A stretch of DNA of 23,555 nt, taken from positions 1 through 23,555 of the IMG/VR virus record IMGVR_UViG_3300044619_001162; one strand, written 5' to 3'. The notes under the pieces were generated by a model, which did no database searches, was not told the origin of the DNA, and was given only the letters and a program-made list of their open reading frames with translations. Below, one piece after another: positions 8,233-20,760 of this stretch. A program made the translations under genes and the position numbers. Position 1 is the stretch's first letter, and each line of letters opens with the position of its first letter. The stretch is from a virus.

Positions 8233-8535
8233 TTACTTAGTATTTATAATCTCTAAAACTAATGCATCTATCAAAACTTGATTTAATTCAGAATAAGGTA
8301 CTTTAAAATAATCATCTGGATTATTGTTTACCCAATCAGCAAAGTTATTATTGTAAATTGCTATTCTTGTGTAGTCAGTTGTTGATTTATTGTTAGCAGG
8401 TTTATTTAAATAAACATTCTCAATTACTGCATCTAAAGATGGTAATGTAGAAGAATCAACTAAAATATTGTCAGTATCAGTAATTAACTGAGTTTGACCA
8501 TATCCAAAAATTAAAAGTGTATTATATTGTTCCAT
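8233..8535 (-). CDS. Unknown protein in the tail-fibre unit
   Basis: 100 aa, acidic, with β-like segments (NTLLIFGYGQTQLITDTDNILVDSS) and a helical C-terminus (YSELNQVLIDALVLEII). It overlaps the stop of the preceding fibre gene by one base (TAATG) and is the last gene of that unit. Small proteins following a fibre gene are often fibre chaperones or caps; this one is not recognised. A weak 7-bp hairpin (8221-8227 with 8236-8242) covers its stop codon, without a clear U run. Confidence 0.7.
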   Translation of the reverse strand: MEQYNTLLIFGYGQTQLITDTDNILVDSSTLPSLDAVIENVYLNKPANNKSTTDYTRIAIYNNNFADWVNNNPDDYFKVPYSELNQVLIDALVLEIINTK

Positions 8536-9833
8536 TATGCGTAAATTACTTCTGTTGTTTCTATATTACCTACCCATTGAATATTGGTAGCAGCTGCTCC
8601 TTGAATTTGTATTCTTAATCCACCAGAACCTGTATCTGCCGCAAGTGTTGGTGTTCCCCAAGCAGGTGTGTTTTGAACAAGTGTTACATTTGAAATTAAT
8701 AAACTTGTTGTTCCAGCACTTGCACCTCTAGTAATTAAACCATCAATATCCCATGCCGCTGTATTTGAAGATCCAGATTGTTTTGCAATAATAGTTCCTT
8801 TAAATCTAAAAGAACTATTGTTAGCTAAAATAATTTGATTTGCTGTAGATGCACCTGTTCCATCAATAGTAAAATTAGTAATAGTATCTGTAGAAGTTCG
8901 CATTCTAAATAAGAATGTTGACTTTTGAGAATCTCCTACAACACCTAAATAATTAGCAAAAGAGTTTCTAGCTAATACACTATTAACATTTGCTCCTGTT
9001 CCTAAAGCAATTGAACCTGTAGAATTTGCAGTACAAGATGCTCCACCAGCTATTGAATATGCACCAGTTGCTGCATTACTTGCTCCTCCAATAACACTTG
9101 AATAATCATTTGAAGCTGTATTTCCTAAACCTCCTCCTACTGTAGTATAGTTACCATTAGATCCATTTCCAAACCCACCCAATAGTGAAGAAGCATAAGC
9201 AGTTGCACTATTAGAAGCTCCACCAGCTACAATACATCTACCTCCTGCTGTATTATTTGCACCGCCTGCAACTGTCGCAAAATCTGATGTTGCTGAATTT
9301 TGATTACCACCTCCAACTCTTGATTGAGAACCAGAAGCAGTATTTTGATAACCACCACCTACTGATGATTGAGGGCCTGAAGCAGTATTATAATACCCTC
9401 CTGAAATTACAGATTGCGCACCTGAAGCAACAGCAGCATTAGTTAATCTTACTTGTTGTAAATCAACTGCATTAGCACCTCTTTTATTACCTCCTGTAAC
9501 TGCTCCATCAGGGATGTCAGCTATGATAGCACCATTTCCTTTAGGTATAATTGCAAAGTCAGCATCAGTAGTTGCACTTACTGATGTTAAACTATCAACA
9601 GGTGTAGTTGCATTTGGGGCTGTTGTGTTTTGTGCTTCTGTGAAATACGTTAATCCACTTACTGAAAAGACTTCTAATATAGTTCCTGATGCATTTTTAT
9701 AATGCACTAACTTATCTGTCTTATCATAAAAATAAGTACTGTTAGCTACAGATGCCCAGTCAGCAGAAGTATCGGTTACTACTGTGTAGTTAATAGCACC
9801 TGCCATTGTTGTTGTTACTGCTGTTACTGCCAT
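8535..9833 (-). CDS. Tail fibre with YadA-head-like repeats
   Basis: 432 aa. Residues 125-290 contain at least ten copies of a roughly 14-residue unit with core GGGxxNtASgxxSsV (for example SVGGGYQNTASGSQS, TVGGGLGNTASNDYS), the signature of the left-handed β-roll of trimeric YadA/Hia-type adhesin heads. The first 110 residues look like an attachment module. The C-terminal 130 residues contain TNFTIDGTG, SFRFKGTIIAKQ and AWDIDGLITRGA, a β-sandwich-like tip also common in marine phage fibres. It is probably a trimeric receptor-binding or side fibre. The repeats make this locus prone to recombination. Confidence 0.85.
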   Translation of the reverse strand: MAVTAVTTTMAGAINYTVVTDTSADWASVANSTYFYDKTDKLVHYKNASGTILEVFSVSGLTYFTEAQNTTAPNATTPVDSLTSVSATTDADFAIIPKGNGAIIADIPDGAVTGGNKRGANAVDLQQVRLTNAAVASGAQSVISGGYYNTASGPQSSVGGGYQNTASGSQSRVGGGNQNSATSDFATVAGGANNTAGGRCIVAGGASNSATAYASSLLGGFGNGSNGNYTTVGGGLGNTASNDYSSVIGGASNAATGAYSIAGGASCTANSTGSIALGTGANVNSVLARNSFANYLGVVGDSQKSTFLFRMRTSTDTITNFTIDGTGASTANQIILANNSSFRFKGTIIAKQSGSSNTAAWDIDGLITRGASAGTTSLLISNVTLVQNTPAWGTPTLAADTGSGGLRIQIQGAAATNIQWVGNIETTEVIYA

Positions 9834-11382: not shown

Positions 11383-12633
11383 TTATCTACTTATTTCTTC
11401 CCAGTCTATTGATACATAAGAACCTAAAGTTCCACCAGTTACATCAATAGCCATTTCAACTACTAATTCAAAAGGTGTACTTGTAAAAGAGTTTCTTTCC
11501 AATTGAGTAGCAAATAAAGCTTCTTTTAATATGTTAATACTTGGAGAACCTTGATTAGAGGAATTAACATATCCTTGAGCCAAAACTCTACCTCCGGATG
11601 TTGTAGTTCCTGTAAGATTGTATTCTACAGATGAATCTACACTTGCTGGATTCCAAGCTCCACCCGTTATTGTAGCTCCATTTACAATTCTCCATGCATA
11701 GTTTTTACCGTTACCTAATCCTAATATGGAGATTGCTGTAACTATAACTATAGAATCTAATGTAGTAGCTTTAAGTCTAATTCCCGCAGCTGGATAATAA
11801 GTTCCTGCCACAGCAAATGTAATAGGAGTGGTAATAGGTGTCCCAATAGCTAACTGTGCACCTCTTAACTCATATCCACCTTCAGATATTGCAGTAGAAC
11901 AAACTTGCTTTAAAGTACTTGGACTGGCTGTTACTCCTGTATTAGTTATCTCATATCTTAAAGGTAATGAAGCTGTAGTAATGTAAGTTGATGTAATTAA
12001 GTTAGCATGATTAAATCTGTGACAAACTATAAAGTTACCGTCTATTACAAAACCTATTCTTACAGTTCCTTCTCCTAACCACTCAATATCCATAAATAGA
12101 ATTTGAGCTTTAGTTATATCAAGTGTTATACCTGAAGGTCCGTTACCATCTAATGTATCTGCATTCCAAGAACTTTGATTAACAACAGTTTCAGAAACAA
12201 CACCCGTTACTAAACTTCTTTCTACAAAACTTAAAGTAGAGTCATTGAGTTGAATATATATTCCATTTTCTGTACCAAAATAACCTACTCTTTGTCTTAG
12301 ATTATTTTGAGCCGGTGCCATTACAAATGTATTCATTACAAGTAATGACTTTCCTGGTTGATATGAGAACACTTTAAATGTTTCTCTAAGAACCTGTGAT
12401 CCACTTGTTGTATTAATATTTAGGTTTACTAATCCTTCATTTGGACTAAAAACTGCTGCTCCACCACTTGCTGTAGAAGTAGCCCAAAGCCCATTATCTT
12501 TGTACCTATGTGAAGAATCAAATAATGTTAATGGTTGTGCTACTCTTAATCTACCAAAGGCATCCGCTAGCATAGGTGTATCACCCAGCAATGAAAAACT
12601 AGAAATTCCAGAGGTAGATATTATAGTACTCAC
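11383..12633 (-). CDS. Phage structural/fibre protein (FGRLRV-LFDSSHRY type)
   Basis: 416 aa. The segment ADAFGRLRVAQPLTLFDSSHRY followed by DNGLW (residues about 23-50) is a recurring N-terminal signature in structural proteins of Bacteroidota and marine phages. The remainder is β-rich, with hydrophobic strands such as KSLLVMNTFVMAP, ILFMDIEWLGEGTVRIGFVIDGNFIV and PFELVVEMAIDVTGGTLG. It seems to be a β-sandwich baseplate or fibre component. It overlaps the upstream gene by one base. Precise position in the virion is unknown. Confidence 0.75.
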   Translation of the reverse strand: MSTIISTSGISSFSLLGDTPMLADAFGRLRVAQPLTLFDSSHRYKDNGLWATSTASGGAAVFSPNEGLVNLNINTTSGSQVLRETFKVFSYQPGKSLLVMNTFVMAPAQNNLRQRVGYFGTENGIYIQLNDSTLSFVERSLVTGVVSETVVNQSSWNADTLDGNGPSGITLDITKAQILFMDIEWLGEGTVRIGFVIDGNFIVCHRFNHANLITSTYITTASLPLRYEITNTGVTASPSTLKQVCSTAISEGGYELRGAQLAIGTPITTPITFAVAGTYYPAAGIRLKATTLDSIVIVTAISILGLGNGKNYAWRIVNGATITGGAWNPASVDSSVEYNLTGTTTSGGRVLAQGYVNSSNQGSPSINILKEALFATQLERNSFTSTPFELVVEMAIDVTGGTLGSYVSIDWEEISR

Positions 12634-13370: not shown

Positions 13371-14171
13371 TTATATGCTAAATCTTCTTACTGCGCGGAC
13401 ATATCTAGATGTTCCTTTACCTCCCATACTTACATCACTAACACTATTACCACTTAAAGTAGCAAACCAATAACTAGAATTTGAATCAATTTCAGTACTA
13501 GTAGCATAGTTTGCGCCAAATACTAAATTTTGACCACCTGCTTGTTCTAATCCTCTAGACACACTAAATTGATTATACCAAATAGTTGTCATTTCATATG
13601 CTGCTGGAAGATACCAATCTGATTTACCACCACTAACAAGATTATTGCATAATACAGCTGCTGTTCCTGATGTTATACCCGAACCAGCACCAGCTGCTAT
13701 AAGATTTGTTGTATTAGTTGATCCATCCCAAGTACTTTCAACATTTGAAATATTGATATTTGAACTAGCCCATTGAGCACTTGTTGATAAATCTGTAGTA
13801 TTAACTACTAAATAATTTTGTATAGTTCCCGCTGTTGGTGGACCTCCTGCAGTTGTAGATAACCATCTATGAAATATTACACCTCCTTCAGTTGGAACAT
13901 ATTCTCCTATTTCATAAGTATACTCACCACTTGCTATTGCCACTAAAGGATTTGCAGGAGTTCCATTTCCTGTAATAGTTACATTATCTACAGAAACAGT
14001 TTGCAAACCACCAACTTGACTAGCAAAGTTTGATGCTATAATACCTACAGTAGTGTACTTATCATCTCTAGTTTCAGTTCTAACTCCCACGGGAATTAGA
14101 GCATCATCTGGTACAGATGTTACTATTCTTCTCTTACTAGCTATCCAGCTTATAAAATTTAAAATATCCAT
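13371..14171 (-). CDS. Adhesin with MDILN anchor and DUF1566/C-type-lectin-like domain
   Basis: 266 aa. Residues 1-54 (MDILNFISWIASKRR, RDDKYTTVGIIASNFASQVG) form the anchor shared with the two genes upstream. Residues about 88-266 match the DUF1566/Lcl C-terminal type: EYVPTEGGVIF, then SDWYLPAAYEMTTIW (184-198), then SSYWFATLS (232-240), then SRYVRAVRRF (255-264). This is a C-type-lectin-like fold used for receptor binding. Members of this fold are the usual variable proteins of diversity-generating retroelements and the last 45 codons are rich in S, N and Y, but no reverse transcriptase is present in this window. Confidence 0.82.
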   Translation of the reverse strand: MDILNFISWIASKRRIVTSVPDDALIPVGVRTETRDDKYTTVGIIASNFASQVGGLQTVSVDNVTITGNGTPANPLVAIASGEYTYEIGEYVPTEGGVIFHRWLSTTAGGPPTAGTIQNYLVVNTTDLSTSAQWASSNINISNVESTWDGSTNTTNLIAAGAGSGITSGTAAVLCNNLVSGGKSDWYLPAAYEMTTIWYNQFSVSRGLEQAGGQNLVFGANYATSTEIDSNSSYWFATLSGNSVSDVSMGGKGTSRYVRAVRRFSI

Positions 14172-14728: not shown

Positions 14729-15646
14729 TTAAAATTGTTCTAATAATACTCTATCTATAAATGCAGAATCAGAAGAGTTACTTAATTCAACTGCAAATAT
14801 TAAATATAAATTTGTTGAATTATTAATAGTAAATGCAGATCTAGTTGAATTAGTATTTCCTAAATCATTTGAAGCTTGTTGGGTAGAATTAAAAATATAA
14901 CCTGTTGTATTTGTTTTTTGTATAGTTCTTACATTATTCAGATAACTTCCAATACCTGTTATAGGTGTTGGTTGACCAGCACCAGTAGCAATAAGTGTTG
15001 CTCCAGCAATTGTATTTGAAGTATTAATATATACTCTTGTTGTAACAGTACTAATACCAGTTGATCTATAAACACCCCAGTTTAATCTTAATACTCCACT
15101 TGATAATAATGTATTAGCTGGAATAAAGAAAGATTGTGATGCTGTTGGTAAAGTTGTACCTGTAACTGCTAGTCCTAATAATGTACTTGAAAATACTTTA
15201 GAACTTCCTCCTGCGGGTCCCTGAGGTCCTTGTGGGCCTTGAGGTCCTGTAGCACCTTGTGATGCAAGTAATGCCCAGTTAGTAGGATCAGTTGATGGAT
15301 TAGATCCTGAAGGTCCCACATTATTAATACAAAACCAAGAAGCTCCACCAAAACCTACAGCATCATCAACTACATATACTCCAGAAGGAGACCATGCACC
15401 TTGCCAGTTTAATCCTGCTGGACCTACCGGACCTGGTACACCTTGAGGACCAATTGGACCTTGAGGACCTGCTGGTGCATAAGGACCAACTTGTGCAGCA
15501 AAATCATCTACTGAAATTGCACCTGTTAGCCATTGATCATCTCTTTTAGGATCTTTAACAGCAGCAGGTAATAATGTTTGAGAAGGATTCACTGTGGTAA
15601 ATTTTCTACCACCTCTGATCCAAGAAATAAAATTAAGAATATCCAT
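14729..15646 (-). CDS. Adhesin with MDILN anchor, collagen-like repeats and CBM5/12-like module
   Basis: 305 aa. The order is: anchor (1-54, with KRDDQWLTGAISVDDFAAQVG); collagen-like G-x-y repeats (about 60-78, GPQGPIGPQGVPGPVGPAG); a small module WQGAWSPSGVYVVDDAVGFG to NWALLA (81-128) resembling the chitin/carbohydrate-binding CBM5/12 family; a second collagen stretch (131-147); and a β-rich C-terminal domain (150-305). Collagen repeats trimerise and act as a stalk, so this should be a trimeric fibre presenting binding domains. It is the first gene of the unit and starts 26 nt after a putative late promoter. Confidence 0.82.
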   Translation of the reverse strand: MDILNFISWIRGGRKFTTVNPSQTLLPAAVKDPKRDDQWLTGAISVDDFAAQVGPYAPAGPQGPIGPQGVPGPVGPAGLNWQGAWSPSGVYVVDDAVGFGGASWFCINNVGPSGSNPSTDPTNWALLASQGATGPQGPQGPQGPAGGSSKVFSSTLLGLAVTGTTLPTASQSFFIPANTLLSSGVLRLNWGVYRSTGISTVTTRVYINTSNTIAGATLIATGAGQPTPITGIGSYLNNVRTIQKTNTTGYIFNSTQQASNDLGNTNSTRSAFTINNSTNLYLIFAVELSNSSDSAFIDRVLLEQF

Positions 15647-17240: not shown

Positions 17241-17303
17241 TGAAAGTAAATTTTAGGATCAAAGAAGATCTGTAACAATTCATACTAAGGTTTGCTGGTG
17301 ACA

Positions 17304-17311
17304 CAAATATA
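17304..17311 (-). promoter_or_regulatory. TATATTTG promoter box of the GroES/DUF3310 unit
   Basis: Matches TAnnTTTG on the minus strand, 63 nt upstream of the ATG at 17240. It falls between the end of the second sulfotransferase gene and the next unit, where no obvious terminator was seen. Confidence 0.5.
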
Positions 17312-17315
17312 TAAA

Positions 17316-17966
17316 TTATTTTATTTCAAACTTATATCCAAAGTATTTTAATTCTTCTTTAAAATAAGTTTCAATTATATTTCTAGATTTAAAGCTATAA
17401 TAAGCAGAATAATGAGGTCTTTTATGCTTCATTTTATATGTTGGAATATCTAAGTCATAGAATGGTAAGTTTAGTTCTTTTATTAAACTAGATAGATCTT
17501 CTTCTAGATTTTCTTGTCTTATATAAAAGTCATGACTAAACTCTCCGTTGATACTCCAGATAGCTTTATTAGTTAATAAGTATTTAATTGTTTCCGGATC
17601 TTTTAAGAATTTCTCAAACATCTGTTTGTTTGCAGGCATAGGGTGTTGCCTACAATAATATGAAACAGCAATATCAAAAGGATTTCTTATGTTACATATT
17701 TTTTTATAATTGTTCCAAATATCATCTCCAATATCTCTTTTTAATTCAAGAGCTGGTTTGTGATTGTACCATTTATCATATATTTGAGTAACTCTATTTC
17801 CAATTATTCCATACTCACTTTCTTGTTCACTAACTTCATGAGTATGCTTATGTATTTTTTCTTGTTCATCTGATAAACAATATCTTTCTAAAAAAGCTTC
17901 AGTAGATGTACCAGAAACTTTTTTAGCTTTTAAAAAAATAAATTTGTACTTATGTGATACTAACAT
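17316..17966 (-). CDS. Sulfotransferase (PAPS-dependent), second of two
   Basis: 216 aa. The 5'-phosphosulfate-binding motif of the sulfotransferase fold is FIFLKAKKVSGTSTEAFL (residues 9-26) and the 3'-phosphate-binding motif is ICNIRNPFDIAVSYY (90-104), with R94 and S102 in the expected places. It should transfer sulfate from PAPS to a hydroxyl, most probably on a glycan, by analogy with the Sulfotransfer_2 type. It overlaps the first sulfotransferase by 17 nt. The two proteins are clearly different from each other outside the motifs, so they probably modify different positions or are an old duplication. Confidence 0.8.
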   Translation of the reverse strand: MLVSHKYKFIFLKAKKVSGTSTEAFLERYCLSDEQEKIHKHTHEVSEQESEYGIIGNRVTQIYDKWYNHKPALELKRDIGDDIWNNYKKICNIRNPFDIAVSYYCRQHPMPANKQMFEKFLKDPETIKYLLTNKAIWSINGEFSHDFYIRQENLEEDLSSLIKELNLPFYDLDIPTYKMKHKRPHYSAYYSFKSRNIIETYFKEELKYFGYKFEIK

Positions 17967-18630
17967 TTGTGTGATCTTTAAAATTTAAAATACCATTAGA
18001 CTCTTTTAATTTATTGTATAGCTCAATGTCTTCTTTAAAATATTCTTTTACTATGTCTAATTCCTTTTTTGAAAGATCATTCACAGTATATTTTTTTTCA
18101 CTGCTGTTTAAATAAATATCTAAGTTCAAATGTACATTAAATTTTAAGAACCAGTTTTTAATTAATTCTTTTTCTGTCATAAGAATTAAAGTTAAGTCAA
18201 TAGGAATAGGAGATATAAAAGAATCTACTTGAGTAAATTTTTTACTTGCAAGTGCATCAAAGTTTGAATAATGATTAGTTACAATCATGTTAACAAAATC
18301 AGTAGGAGATATATTTCTAAAATTGCAGATAGATATAAATCTTTCAATTGGTTCTCTAACTATTCCTATAAATTTTTTATACTTAAAATCATGTTCTTTT
18401 AAAATTCCCATTTTTAATGCATGTTCTAAAGAGAAATGATCTACAGATTTTTTTTGATTTATCCAGTATGGGAATACATATTTTAATTTTTTTCTATTTT
18501 CATTTTCCCATTCTTTATGAGTTTTTAAACCATAGTATTTTGTTTTATAAAATTCTGGTAGTCTGGAGTATATTGTAGTACCTAAATTTTTATAGGTGTG
18601 AATAAAAAAATATAAGGTGTCTATCATCAT
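17950..18630 (-). CDS. Sulfotransferase (PAPS-dependent), first of two
   Basis: 226 aa. FFIHTYKNLGTTIYSRL (residues 8-24) is the 5'-phosphosulfate loop with K14 and the GTT turn; FIGIVREPIERFISICNF (87-104) is the 3'-phosphate motif with R92 and S100. H65 in KSVDHFSLEHALKM is a candidate catalytic base. The gene is unusually AT-rich and lysine/asparagine-rich even for this window, hinting at recent acquisition. Met1 and Met2 are both possible starts (ATGATG), and the gene overlaps the glycosyltransferase by four bases. The substrate is unknown. Confidence 0.78.
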   Translation of the reverse strand: MMIDTLYFFIHTYKNLGTTIYSRLPEFYKTKYYGLKTHKEWENENRKKLKYVFPYWINQKKSVDHFSLEHALKMGILKEHDFKYKKFIGIVREPIERFISICNFRNISPTDFVNMIVTNHYSNFDALASKKFTQVDSFISPIPIDLTLILMTEKELIKNWFLKFNVHLNLDIYLNSSEKKYTVNDLSKKELDIVKEYFKEDIELYNKLKESNGILNFKDHTNVSIT

Positions 18631-19769
18631 AAAGAATTAAACAATTCATACCATTGCTGTGCTATATATTTCCAAGAGTATTTTTCTTGGTTAAACTTAG
18701 TATAACATAACTCAGCATGTTTATTATAAAGATCTTTATTGCCGTAAAGTAATTCTAATGCATTTACAGTATCTTCAATTGTTACCATTTTAGCTGTTGT
18801 AGATATCTGATCTAGAGTAAATGGTATCTTAGCTGGAATCAGAACCCCGCAATCTTGATATAACTCAGTCAAAGCAGAGTGATCTGGTACAATCTGTGGG
18901 GCTCCTGTAGCAGCATGTTCTGCATTTGGTAATCCAAAACCTTCTCCCAGTCCAGTGTTTATACCTACATCACATGCATTGTATAACTTATTAAGATCTT
19001 CAATGTTAAGATTTGGAGGCCCTGGCACTTTAGTACTTGACATTAATTTATCTTCAAAACCTAGTTCTTTTGCCATTCTATATGTATCAATATGACAATC
19101 TATAAGACCGCTATGCATGTATAGAAAAACATCCTTCTTATCTTTTGCAAATTTTTGAAATGCCCGGAGAGTTATGTCTAATCTTTTTCTTGGTTGGTTT
19201 CTGCCGGCATTTAAGACTATAAATGATTTCTGTAACTGAACCGGTTTAAATAATATTTTCTTTGCTTCTTTTCTATCAGCATGTGTTTTATAAAATATAT
19301 TATGATCTATACCGTGCTCAATAATTTGATATTTAATATCTGATCTTGCTTTGAGGGCTACATCTAATCCAAACTTATTATATACTACAGCTCTGTCAAC
19401 TTTATCTAAACAATCATACCATTTTGGATCATGATTCTCAGCATCTACAGGAAAGTATAATACAGTTTTTATTTTTGACTTTAAAGAATCAATCATTTTA
19501 TCTGCAATCCAAATATCATTTATGATAAATAAGATATCAATCTTTTCTTTCTTTATAATTTTATATGCTCTTTTAAGCCCGTATATATCATCTCCCATAG
19601 GAGTATTATATATTTTATACTTGTAACCATTTATTTTTGAAAAAGAATTGGTTGCATAAATAACAAAATCATATTTATCTTCAGGAAAATTAGTTAGAAT
19701 ATTTCTTACTACATTACCAAAACCTGTTGGTGCAGTTGGACTGTCCGCCCATATAAGAATTTTTTTCAT
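18627..19769 (-). CDS. GT-B glycosyltransferase (GT4-like)
   Basis: 380 aa from MKKILIWADSPTAPTGFGNV. The frame is open to 19790, but that Met lies inside the TATATTTG box (19788-19795), so translation must begin at 19769. An N-terminal Rossmann-type domain contains a GFG-N loop and DILFIINDIW; the C-terminal half has LNAGRNQPRKRLDITLRAFQ, DLNKLYNACDVGINTGLGEG and GFGLPNAEHAATGAPQIVP, the sugar-nucleotide site with the conserved Glu of GT4 enzymes. It is the first gene of a unit with two sulfotransferases, so the three may build one sulfated glycan on the virion or on host surface polymers. Confidence 0.88.
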   Translation of the reverse strand: MKKILIWADSPTAPTGFGNVVRNILTNFPEDKYDFVIYATNSFSKINGYKYKIYNTPMGDDIYGLKRAYKIIKKEKIDILFIINDIWIADKMIDSLKSKIKTVLYFPVDAENHDPKWYDCLDKVDRAVVYNKFGLDVALKARSDIKYQIIEHGIDHNIFYKTHADRKEAKKILFKPVQLQKSFIVLNAGRNQPRKRLDITLRAFQKFAKDKKDVFLYMHSGLIDCHIDTYRMAKELGFEDKLMSSTKVPGPPNLNIEDLNKLYNACDVGINTGLGEGFGLPNAEHAATGAPQIVPDHSALTELYQDCGVLIPAKIPFTLDQISTTAKMVTIEDTVNALELLYGNKDLYNKHAELCYTKFNQEKYSWKYIAQQWYELFNSL

Positions 19770-19787
19770 GCATATTTGTTGGTATGA

Positions 19788-19795
19788 CAAATATA
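19788..19795 (-). promoter_or_regulatory. TATATTTG promoter box of the glycan unit
   Basis: Matches TAnnTTTG on the minus strand and lies 19 nt before the chosen start of the glycosyltransferase gene; it decides that start because the longer frame would begin inside the box. It is downstream of the terminator at 19815-19844. Confidence 0.58.
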
Positions 19796-19814
19796 TAAAC
19801 TTTTTTAATTTAAA

Positions 19815-19844
19815 CTAAAAACCCCAGAAAAAATTCCCAGGGTT
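19815..19844 (-). terminator. Rho-independent terminator after the peptidase/ATE-like unit
   Basis: Stem AACCCCAG with CCCAGGGTT (19820-19827 with 19836-19844), G-U pairs included, followed on the minus strand by TTTTTAGTTT. A TATATTTG box at 19887-19894 lies just upstream, so a very short RNA may also arise here. Confidence 0.7.
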
Positions 19845-19898
19845 CTCAGTTAAATCAATCAATTAAAATTATGTTATGAACACATACAAATATACAAC

Positions 19899-20096
19899 TT
19901 ATTTTATATCTCTACCAAATGTTAAATTATTTTTTGCACGGATGTCTTTATGAGTAAACTGCCAGAACTCACCAGTAGATGTTATTATCACAGTATAGAT
20001 AGTATCAGTCTCATGCCCGTAGTCAGTAACAAGCCAGATGATCCCCGGACCTTTAGGTGTGTTTACCTCTACTCTATTGGTGGGTTCATACATCAT
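19899..20096 (-). CDS. Small β-rich protein, unknown function
   Basis: 65 aa. Met1 and Met2 are adjacent and the ATGATGTATGA sequence overlaps the stop of the ATE-like gene. The sequence is β-rich and compact: NRVEVNTPKGPGIIWLVTDYG, then TIYTVIITSTGEFWQFTHKDI. The pattern of strands around a P-G turn recalls SH3- or KOW-like small barrels, but no family is certain. It closes the unit with the ATE-like and peptidase genes before a terminator. Confidence 0.65.
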   Translation of the reverse strand: MMYEPTNRVEVNTPKGPGIIWLVTDYGHETDTIYTVIITSTGEFWQFTHKDIRAKNNLTFGRDIK

Positions 20097-20760
20097 ATCC
20101 TGTGATGTTTATATTTTCATCTCTTGTTACTAAAGCTTTGTAGAGATCAATATCAGTTGACCATTCTTTACCTGTCCAGAATTCAAACCCGGAATAGTTA
20201 GCTTTATACTCACAGCATTTCTCATATCCACCTAAGAGATACACATACTCACAGTTTAAAAGTTTTGCCGTTTCACATTCCATCATCTGAGCTATGGTAC
20301 CCAGAGAAAGTTTTGGATCTTGGTAATCCCATATAAACTGATATGCTACAAACTGTGTCTCAAACTGTCTGTACAAACTGATACCAACCAGGGTATCTGC
20401 CCAATATTCTATAACCTGACAATCTTTGAATGACTCTAATTTTATGTCTCTCTTAAAGTTGTGGTAATTACAGTACTTGTTATACAGCTCAGTATAAGCT
20501 TCTAGGTTAGCTTCAAGATTACCATTTTCAACTATGATTTTTTTGGATAGCTTCTTGGTAGTCTTGCTGGGTTTATAGTGAGCTAAGTTTATCCGGGTGC
20601 TGCGTTCATTATACCACTTGCCCTCCCATGGTATCCATCCTTGTAGTAATGCATCTGTGGAAGATTCATTAGGTTCAAGAATCCCGTATGCACAGTTGAT
20701 AATTAACTCCAAGTCACTTACTTTACCAAAGCCTTGGACATGATCAAAGTATACTTTCAT
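20086..20760 (-). CDS. Aminoacyl-tRNA-protein transferase-like (ATE/Bpt C-domain)
   Basis: 224 aa. The order of motifs follows bacterial Bpt and eukaryotic ATE1 transferases: STRINLAHYKPSKTTKKLSKK (residues 54-74, the conserved basic segment), EAYTELYNKYCNYH (87-100), LSLGTIAQMMECETAKLL (151-168) and the signature EYVYLLGGYEKCCEYKANYSGFEF (171-194), matching YVYLGYwI..C.KM.YKa.F.P.E, then GKEW. These enzymes attach Arg or Leu from aminoacyl-tRNA to N-termini. The N-terminal cysteine cluster of canonical ATE is absent; only C23 lies there, so the substrate may differ or activity may be lost. The four-base overlap with the peptidase gene suggests shared function. Confidence 0.75.
   Translation of the reverse strand: MKVYFDHVQGFGKVSDLELIINCAYGILEPNESSTDALLQGWIPWEGKWYNERSTRINLAHYKPSKTTKKLSKKIIVENGNLEANLEAYTELYNKYCNYHNFKRDIKLESFKDCQVIEYWADTLVGISLYRQFETQFVAYQFIWDYQDPKLSLGTIAQMMECETAKLLNCEYVYLLGGYEKCCEYKANYSGFEFWTGKEWSTDIDLYKALVTRDENINITGYDV

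Follow-up and report, generated by a model that had tools for sequence, protein, structure and literature searches.

Phage sulfotransferases are already known, without an explained role. They have been reported as auxiliary metabolic genes in OM43 phage genomes (PMC10580990), where a Sulfotransfer_3 domain was described and its role called unclear, and from glacier ice (PMC8290583), and PHROG 3347 is a further example. The locus described here likewise places sulfotransferase genes in a phage genome, but its two genes are co-operonic with a glycosyltransferase (GT) and occupy a defined insertion site that holds other partners in relatives. The closest phage GT module is that of the unrelated Synechococcus cyanophage S-CBS4, in which a homologous GT (36% identity) is followed by a second sugar enzyme, a GT2-like protein (galactosyl transferase), and by a decorating enzyme, a methyltransferase, between the portal and head protease genes; our locus has sulfotransferases where S-CBS4 has the methyltransferase. 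Glycans occur on the capsid and tail tube proteins of mycobacteriophages (PMC12619734, citing Freeman et al. 2023), as is proposed for virion proteins here, although the hosts are unrelated and the section of that paper concerned makes no mention of sulfation. Among cellular enzymes, HS6ST3 (5t03) and HS2ST (4ndz) are among the best structural and profile matches: they share the PAPS sulfotransferase fold, the 5'-PSB and 3'-PB motifs and a His at the catalytic position with the phage enzymes, which are shorter (216 and 226 aa), soluble and ∼14-16% identical to them. What is new is the sulfotransferase operon with a GT, the insertion with an empty site, the variety of capping enzymes that relatives have at one site, and the presence of APS kinase genes near sulfotransferases in phages. 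With an empty-site sister, a GT partner and parallel methyltransferase cassettes at the site, the cassette gives phage sulfotransferases a testable setting.

The locus lies in an IMG/VR virus record, a 23,555-base fragment that was analysed over its whole length (the window) and in which almost all genes are on the minus strand. The window also encodes a portal protein (phrog_6547), a large terminase (TerL; phrog_6681), an exonuclease, a lysozyme-type protein and fibre/virion proteins, among them predicted fibre proteins at 8535-9833, 13371-14171 and 14729-15646. Relatives of its TerL are encoded in at least 587 viral stretches, the best 80 of which are 81-100% identical, and the longest of these contigs reach ∼115-125 kb. 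Because TerL is 24-26% identical to proteins of Flavobacterium and crAss-like phages and promoter-like TAnnTTTG boxes were seen in the window, a Bacteroidota host is likely, so the assignment to a Bacteroidota phage in the preliminary description is plausible, if short of proof. A virion structural protein encoded at 11383-12633 (minus strand; phrog_1645, E 3e-134) is 64% identical to proteins of T4-like cyanophages (S-RIM12 and others). Given a Bacteroidota-phage-type terminase beside this T4-like cyanophage-type protein, we regard the latter as a horizontally exchanged virion component.

The features of the cassette and its borders are as follows, in the order of transcription along the minus strand:

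19805 to 19850, minus strand: terminator hairpin closing the upstream unit (-19.5 kcal/mol, z -4.96)
19788 to 19795, minus strand: TATATTTG promoter-like box before GT, identified by its position
17332 to 19771, minus strand: inserted segment, missing in the nearest relative, with imperfect ∼49-bp direct repeats at its borders
18627 to 19769, minus strand: GT, family-4 (GT-B) glycosyltransferase of 380 aa (PF00534, phrog_2170, EX7E motif)
17950 to 18630, minus strand: ST2, predicted divergent Sulfotransfer_2-type PAPS sulfotransferase of 226 aa (PF03567, alignments, moderate model)
17316 to 17966, minus strand: ST1, predicted PAPS sulfotransferase of 216 aa (alignment, profile, fold model)
17304 to 17311, minus strand: second TATATTTG box, directly after ST1 and before the next gene (17240-16935)

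The ORF coordinates bear out the earlier account of a three-gene unit at 17316-19795 with 4- and 17-base overlaps: the ATGA at 18627-18630 holds both the GT stop and the ST2 start, and ST2 and ST1 share 17950-17966. The box said to lead the unit was also found, directly before GT and, read 5' to 3', after the terminator hairpin. As the TTG start listed at 19790 falls within this box, ATG 19769 was taken as the likely start of GT. The window contains nine copies of TATATTTG against 3.5 expected (three of 100 shuffles reach nine), and four of the seven minus-strand copies fall in the 150 nt before a minus-strand start; such zones make up 19% of the window. This modest enrichment is consistent with a promoter and falls short of proof. 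G+C content is 31% in GT, 23% in ST2, 26% in ST1 and 27% over the whole unit, compared with 34% in the rest of the window.

GT can be firmly assigned to the GT4 (GT-B) glycosyltransferases from its sequence. It exceeded the cut-off of Pfam PF00534 (Glycos_transf_1; 33.1 bits, cut-off 26.4), matched phrog_2170 with an E-value of 8e-52, and features the sequence EGFGLPNAE (E276 to E284), an instance of the EX7E motif of retaining GT4 enzymes. A scan with GT found 50-51% identity to the GTs of relatives. Its similarity to the GT4-conflict model was weak (22.9 bits, below the cut-off of 26). No membrane segment was predicted in GT, ST2 or ST1, and the make-up of a Gtr-type serotype-conversion module (membrane GT plus flippase, GtrA/GtrB/Gtr) was thus not found among the three proteins.

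ST1 scored 16.9 and 15.4 bits against Pfam Sulfotransfer_1 and Sulfotransfer_2, under the cut-off of 22. Because the Pfam model that fails on ST1 likewise fails on other ST1-family members in viral records, its class was decided by fold and motifs. In an alignment of 40 sequences, Lys16 of the 5'-PSB loop (KKVSGTST, residues 15-22) and His69 at the catalytic position are each kept in at least 90%, and the 3'-PB residues Arg94 and Ser102 (RxxxxxxxS) are invariant. A profile search matched HS6ST3 (5t03; E 2e-6) and aligned the conserved His with the HS6ST3 His that we take to be the catalytic base; single-sequence PDB searches with ST1 and with ST2 returned chance matches alone, so the profile was needed for ST1. 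The AlphaFold (AF2) model (pLDDT 84, pTM 0.81) gave 5t03_B, a heparan sulfate 6-O-sulfotransferase, as its best VIA match (Z 11.3, rmsd 3.7, 181 residues), sulfotransferase-fold entries in all 50 VIA matches listed, Z scores of ∼9 to SULT and TPST enzymes, and a best Foldseek E-value of 1.7e-3. The proposal of a PAPS-type enzyme therefore survives a structure prediction that could have lacked the fold, and ST1 is firmly placed among the PAPS-type sulfotransferases by fold and motifs.

ST2 appears to be a more divergent PAPS-type sulfotransferase, a prediction with good support. It exceeded the cut-off of PF03567 (Sulfotransfer_2; 25.2 bits, cut-off 22), and in alignments its Lys14, His65, Arg92 and Ser100 occupy the conserved motif positions. 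Its model is of moderate quality (pLDDT 65, pTM 0.67) and was biased toward the sulfotransferase fold by ST1 relatives in the alignment; sulfotransferases account for every VIA match listed (best Z 7.9), and the input alignment itself contained such sequences. The postulated combination of one GT-B enzyme and two PAPS-type sulfotransferases in one unit is thus upheld, firmly for GT and ST1 and with good support for ST2. An origin of ST1 and ST2 by tandem duplication was considered and is not favoured, their mutual identity being 17-19%.

ST1 relatives were found at 31 viral loci and, in a scan with ST1 alone as query, at 98 confirmed places in cellular genomes. A pattern scan for viral relatives of ST2 found none, and tblastn of ST1 and ST2 against 50,697 phage records gave no match. 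In a quick tree, from which no direction of transfer was read, ST1 sits on a long branch with weakly supported placement (83%) beside homologues from three viral contigs (L002, L004 and L006) and one Woesebacteria sequence. The sampled neighbourhoods of cellular homologues contain glycosyltransferases, other sulfotransferases, polysaccharide synthesis proteins and methyltransferases. In Oceanobacillus arenosus, the homologue adjoins another sulfotransferase, an ATP sulfurylase, a sulfate-type symporter and an APS kinase, which supports PAPS as the donor for the ST1 family.

Comparison with the nearest relative (L155) revealed an empty site, in which the segment 19771-17332 is missing. DNA identity in the two flanks is 97% and 95%, the two upstream genes show 99.6-100% identity, and L155 5788-5834 aligns with both edges of the insert. 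Compared with each other, the edges prove to be imperfect direct repeats, identical at 38 of 49 bases, that contain the promoter boxes. Recombination between promoter regions may thus add or remove units, a step that we infer from the repeats. Fifty-five relatives span the site: tblastn detected the sulfotransferases in none of them and a GT there in one (L190). PF03567 was likewise not found in 20 sister records, where the controls gave no match either, so the tblastn result carries more weight. The idea that sulfation is general in this lineage was rejected on these two results. With its own promoter box and terminator, its absence from close relatives and a G+C content of 27% against 34%, the cassette is an accessory insertion of the kind known as a phage moron. 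Promoter-containing repeats border accessory units at 19771-19820 and 17290-17340 of the window and at L190:6793-6819; they resemble mobile promoter cassettes and could mark other exchangeable units.

Other partners accompany the GT at the same site. In two relatives (L300 and L301), the GT and an FkbM-type methyltransferase (PF05050, 49 bits) are flanked by homologues of the genes that neighbour the cassette in the window. In L190 the GT is accompanied by a 210-aa protein weakly similar to GT25 and a 191-aa protein with a weak Methyltransf_23 match (26 bits, cut-off 27), followed by a promoter copy, while a further relative (L302) has the GT without an FkbM- or L190-type partner. Since sisters either are without the cassette or combine the same GT type with methyltransferases, the decorating enzymes appear to be exchangeable between cassettes, and in the simplest reading of these gene sets the GT type would lay down a sugar that the varying partner caps.

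The preliminary description had called for a search for the same triplet in other phages. Only L002, an unrelated phage, showed the GT-ST-ST order; the window phage's own lineage did not. In L002, a 755-aa double-GT protein is followed by two ST1-family sulfotransferases in a run that also encodes a methyltransferase, a GT2, a hexapeptide acyltransferase-type protein and a cytidylyltransferase, and the set is bounded by a terminase-like gene and a portal gene. GTs of the phrog_2170 type are present in 14 of 28 viral records with these sulfotransferase families, a count that includes near relatives; as the GT model also matches in all control genomes, the figure says nothing about association. 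Another viral contig (L013:3026-11069) encodes approximately seven sulfotransferase-family genes within 8 kb, together with a GT61 gene.

One phage contig (L031), which also encodes a baseplate wedge protein and a late sigma factor, carries two phrog_2170 GTs and, ∼7 kb from them, an epimerase, a cytidylyltransferase, an ST1 homologue, a GT25, a Sulfotransfer_4 protein and an APS kinase. The last is full length (L031:8282-8992, plus strand; PF01583, E 5e-51) with an N-terminal DUF2061 segment; tblastn of the ST1 homologue from this contig against the 50,697 phage records gave no match. A second full-length APS kinase (G003:C1:2488-2928) lies ∼2 kb from the ST1 homologue of L004/G003. APS kinases were counted only when matched end to end, which left G003 and G030 (L031) alone; partial APS_kinase matches in several viral contigs (profile positions ∼5-90) were not accepted. 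No APS kinase was found in the window or in nine long sister genomes, so the window phage would depend on PAPS from its host. The assertion that host PAPS is required thus holds for this phage and its nine sisters and not in general: because L031 encodes an APS kinase along with an ST1 homologue, some phages may supply their own PAPS. In phages that combine sulfotransferase homologues with an APS kinase, sulfation would seem important enough to be worth a supply of its donor. The APS-kinase phage also encodes, at L154:8568-9662 (minus strand), an adenylosuccinate-synthetase-like protein that matches phrog_1211 (E 1.5e-67; annotated 2-aminooxy adenylosuccinate synthetase), so its genome may contain diaminopurine (Z).

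It is quite probable that the cassette consists of a GT and sulfotransferases that decorate a glycan. We propose an accessory module that has a promoter of its own and sits, as an insertion, upstream of the tail-fibre genes in the genome of a large phage. Within the infected cell, the soluble GT would move a sugar from a host nucleotide-sugar onto an acceptor, and ST2 and ST1 would then sulfate the added sugar, probably at two positions, with host PAPS. The acceptor would most likely be a phage virion protein (tail fibre, capsid or appendage), and progeny would bear a charged, sulfated glycan. As a whole, this reading of a glycan-decorating moron that makes a sulfated sugar, virion target included, has a little under an even chance. 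Three points favour a virion acceptor: the proteins are soluble and have no membrane segments, the related sets in L002 and S-CBS4 lie among head genes, and the cassette has neither flippase nor polymerase. The lack of membrane segments agrees with an acceptor protein in the cytoplasm and disagrees with a Gtr-type flippase system. Against it, the window genes point to no acceptor, nucleotide-sugar gene or target signal, a location among structural genes is typical for morons of any function, and some glycan-modifying morons work on the host surface. The main rival accordingly has the GT and sulfotransferases modify a lipid-linked or finished host polysaccharide (capsule or O-antigen-like glycan), so that a receptor is lost (superinfection exclusion) or progeny are spared re-binding to cell debris. 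It draws on the wide spread of ST1 homologues in bacteria (98 cellular places) and on the other sulfotransferases and polysaccharide glycosyltransferases encoded near them, which are cell-surface glycan enzymes; sulfated capsules with biosynthetic gene clusters are described from marine bacteria (Vibrio sp. KMM 8419, PMC11641403; Cobetia marina, PMC11766843). The cassette, however, has no membrane GT, flippase or polymerase, and cassettes of the same GT type sit among head or packaging genes in L002 and S-CBS4. We consider the host surface, which the preliminary description had put forward beside the virion, rather unlikely as a target, and less likely than the virion.

The sulfotransferases might instead act independently of the GT, as auxiliary metabolic enzymes on host small molecules, lipids or tyrosines; a fold that spans SULT and TPST and the many viral contigs with an ST1 homologue and no PF00534 GT on the contig would be in keeping with this. 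The tightly overlapping operon with GT, the recurrence of GT-ST-ST in L002 and a structural similarity that is highest, albeit by a small Z margin, to sulfotransferases of glycans (heparan sulfate) make it improbable. DNA hypermodification, in which the GT would glycosylate a modified base and the sulfotransferases would sulfate the sugar and shield the genome from restriction, has a precedent in phage nucleotide modification systems based on glycosyltransferase/sulfotransferase, as stated in PMC10829341 (citing Iyer et al. 2013), and the weak GT4-conflict similarity of GT is in keeping with it. A Tet/JBP search of the window, itself a fragment, gave no match, but neither did the control, which makes this weak evidence; a thymidylate-synthase-family gene, of the type able to make hydroxymethyl bases, is present in only one of the nine long sister genomes; and the cassette is rare on a common backbone, with glycan-type methyltransferases as same-site partners. 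We judge this explanation very unlikely. Just as little credit is due to a recently acquired cassette that is silent or already decaying, above all in ST2, which would accord with the low G+C of ST2 and ST1, the long ST1 branch, the divergence of ST2 and the empty site in L155; three open frames with start/stop overlaps, motif residues kept in both sulfotransferases and the predicted promoter box and terminator speak against it.

A product of the glycan-decorating moron that sat on the virion would be the phage counterpart of sulfated glycoproteins and would affect adsorption as well as the recognition of virions in their surroundings. Taken further, sulfated virion glycans might be made by exchangeable cassettes, a tentative idea to which we give about one chance in three. 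A conserved GT would then be combined with interchangeable caps (two sulfotransferases, FkbM or other methyltransferases, acyltransferase-type proteins) that set the surface chemistry of the sugar, and some phages would contribute an APS kinase.

Two further genes in the window merit mention. A putative fibre protein at 13371-14171 (minus strand) has an Lcl_C-like C-terminus (31 bits, under the cut-off of 34.9). Legionella Lcl binds sulfated glycans, and a link between this protein and the sulfation cassette is speculative. At 20086-20760 (minus strand), a gene whose product has the C-terminal domain of arginyl-tRNA-protein transferases (ATE_C; E 9e-8, above the cut-off) encodes a possible phage aminoacyl-transferase or GNAT-type enzyme; this gene type occurs beside the insertion site in 64 viral loci.
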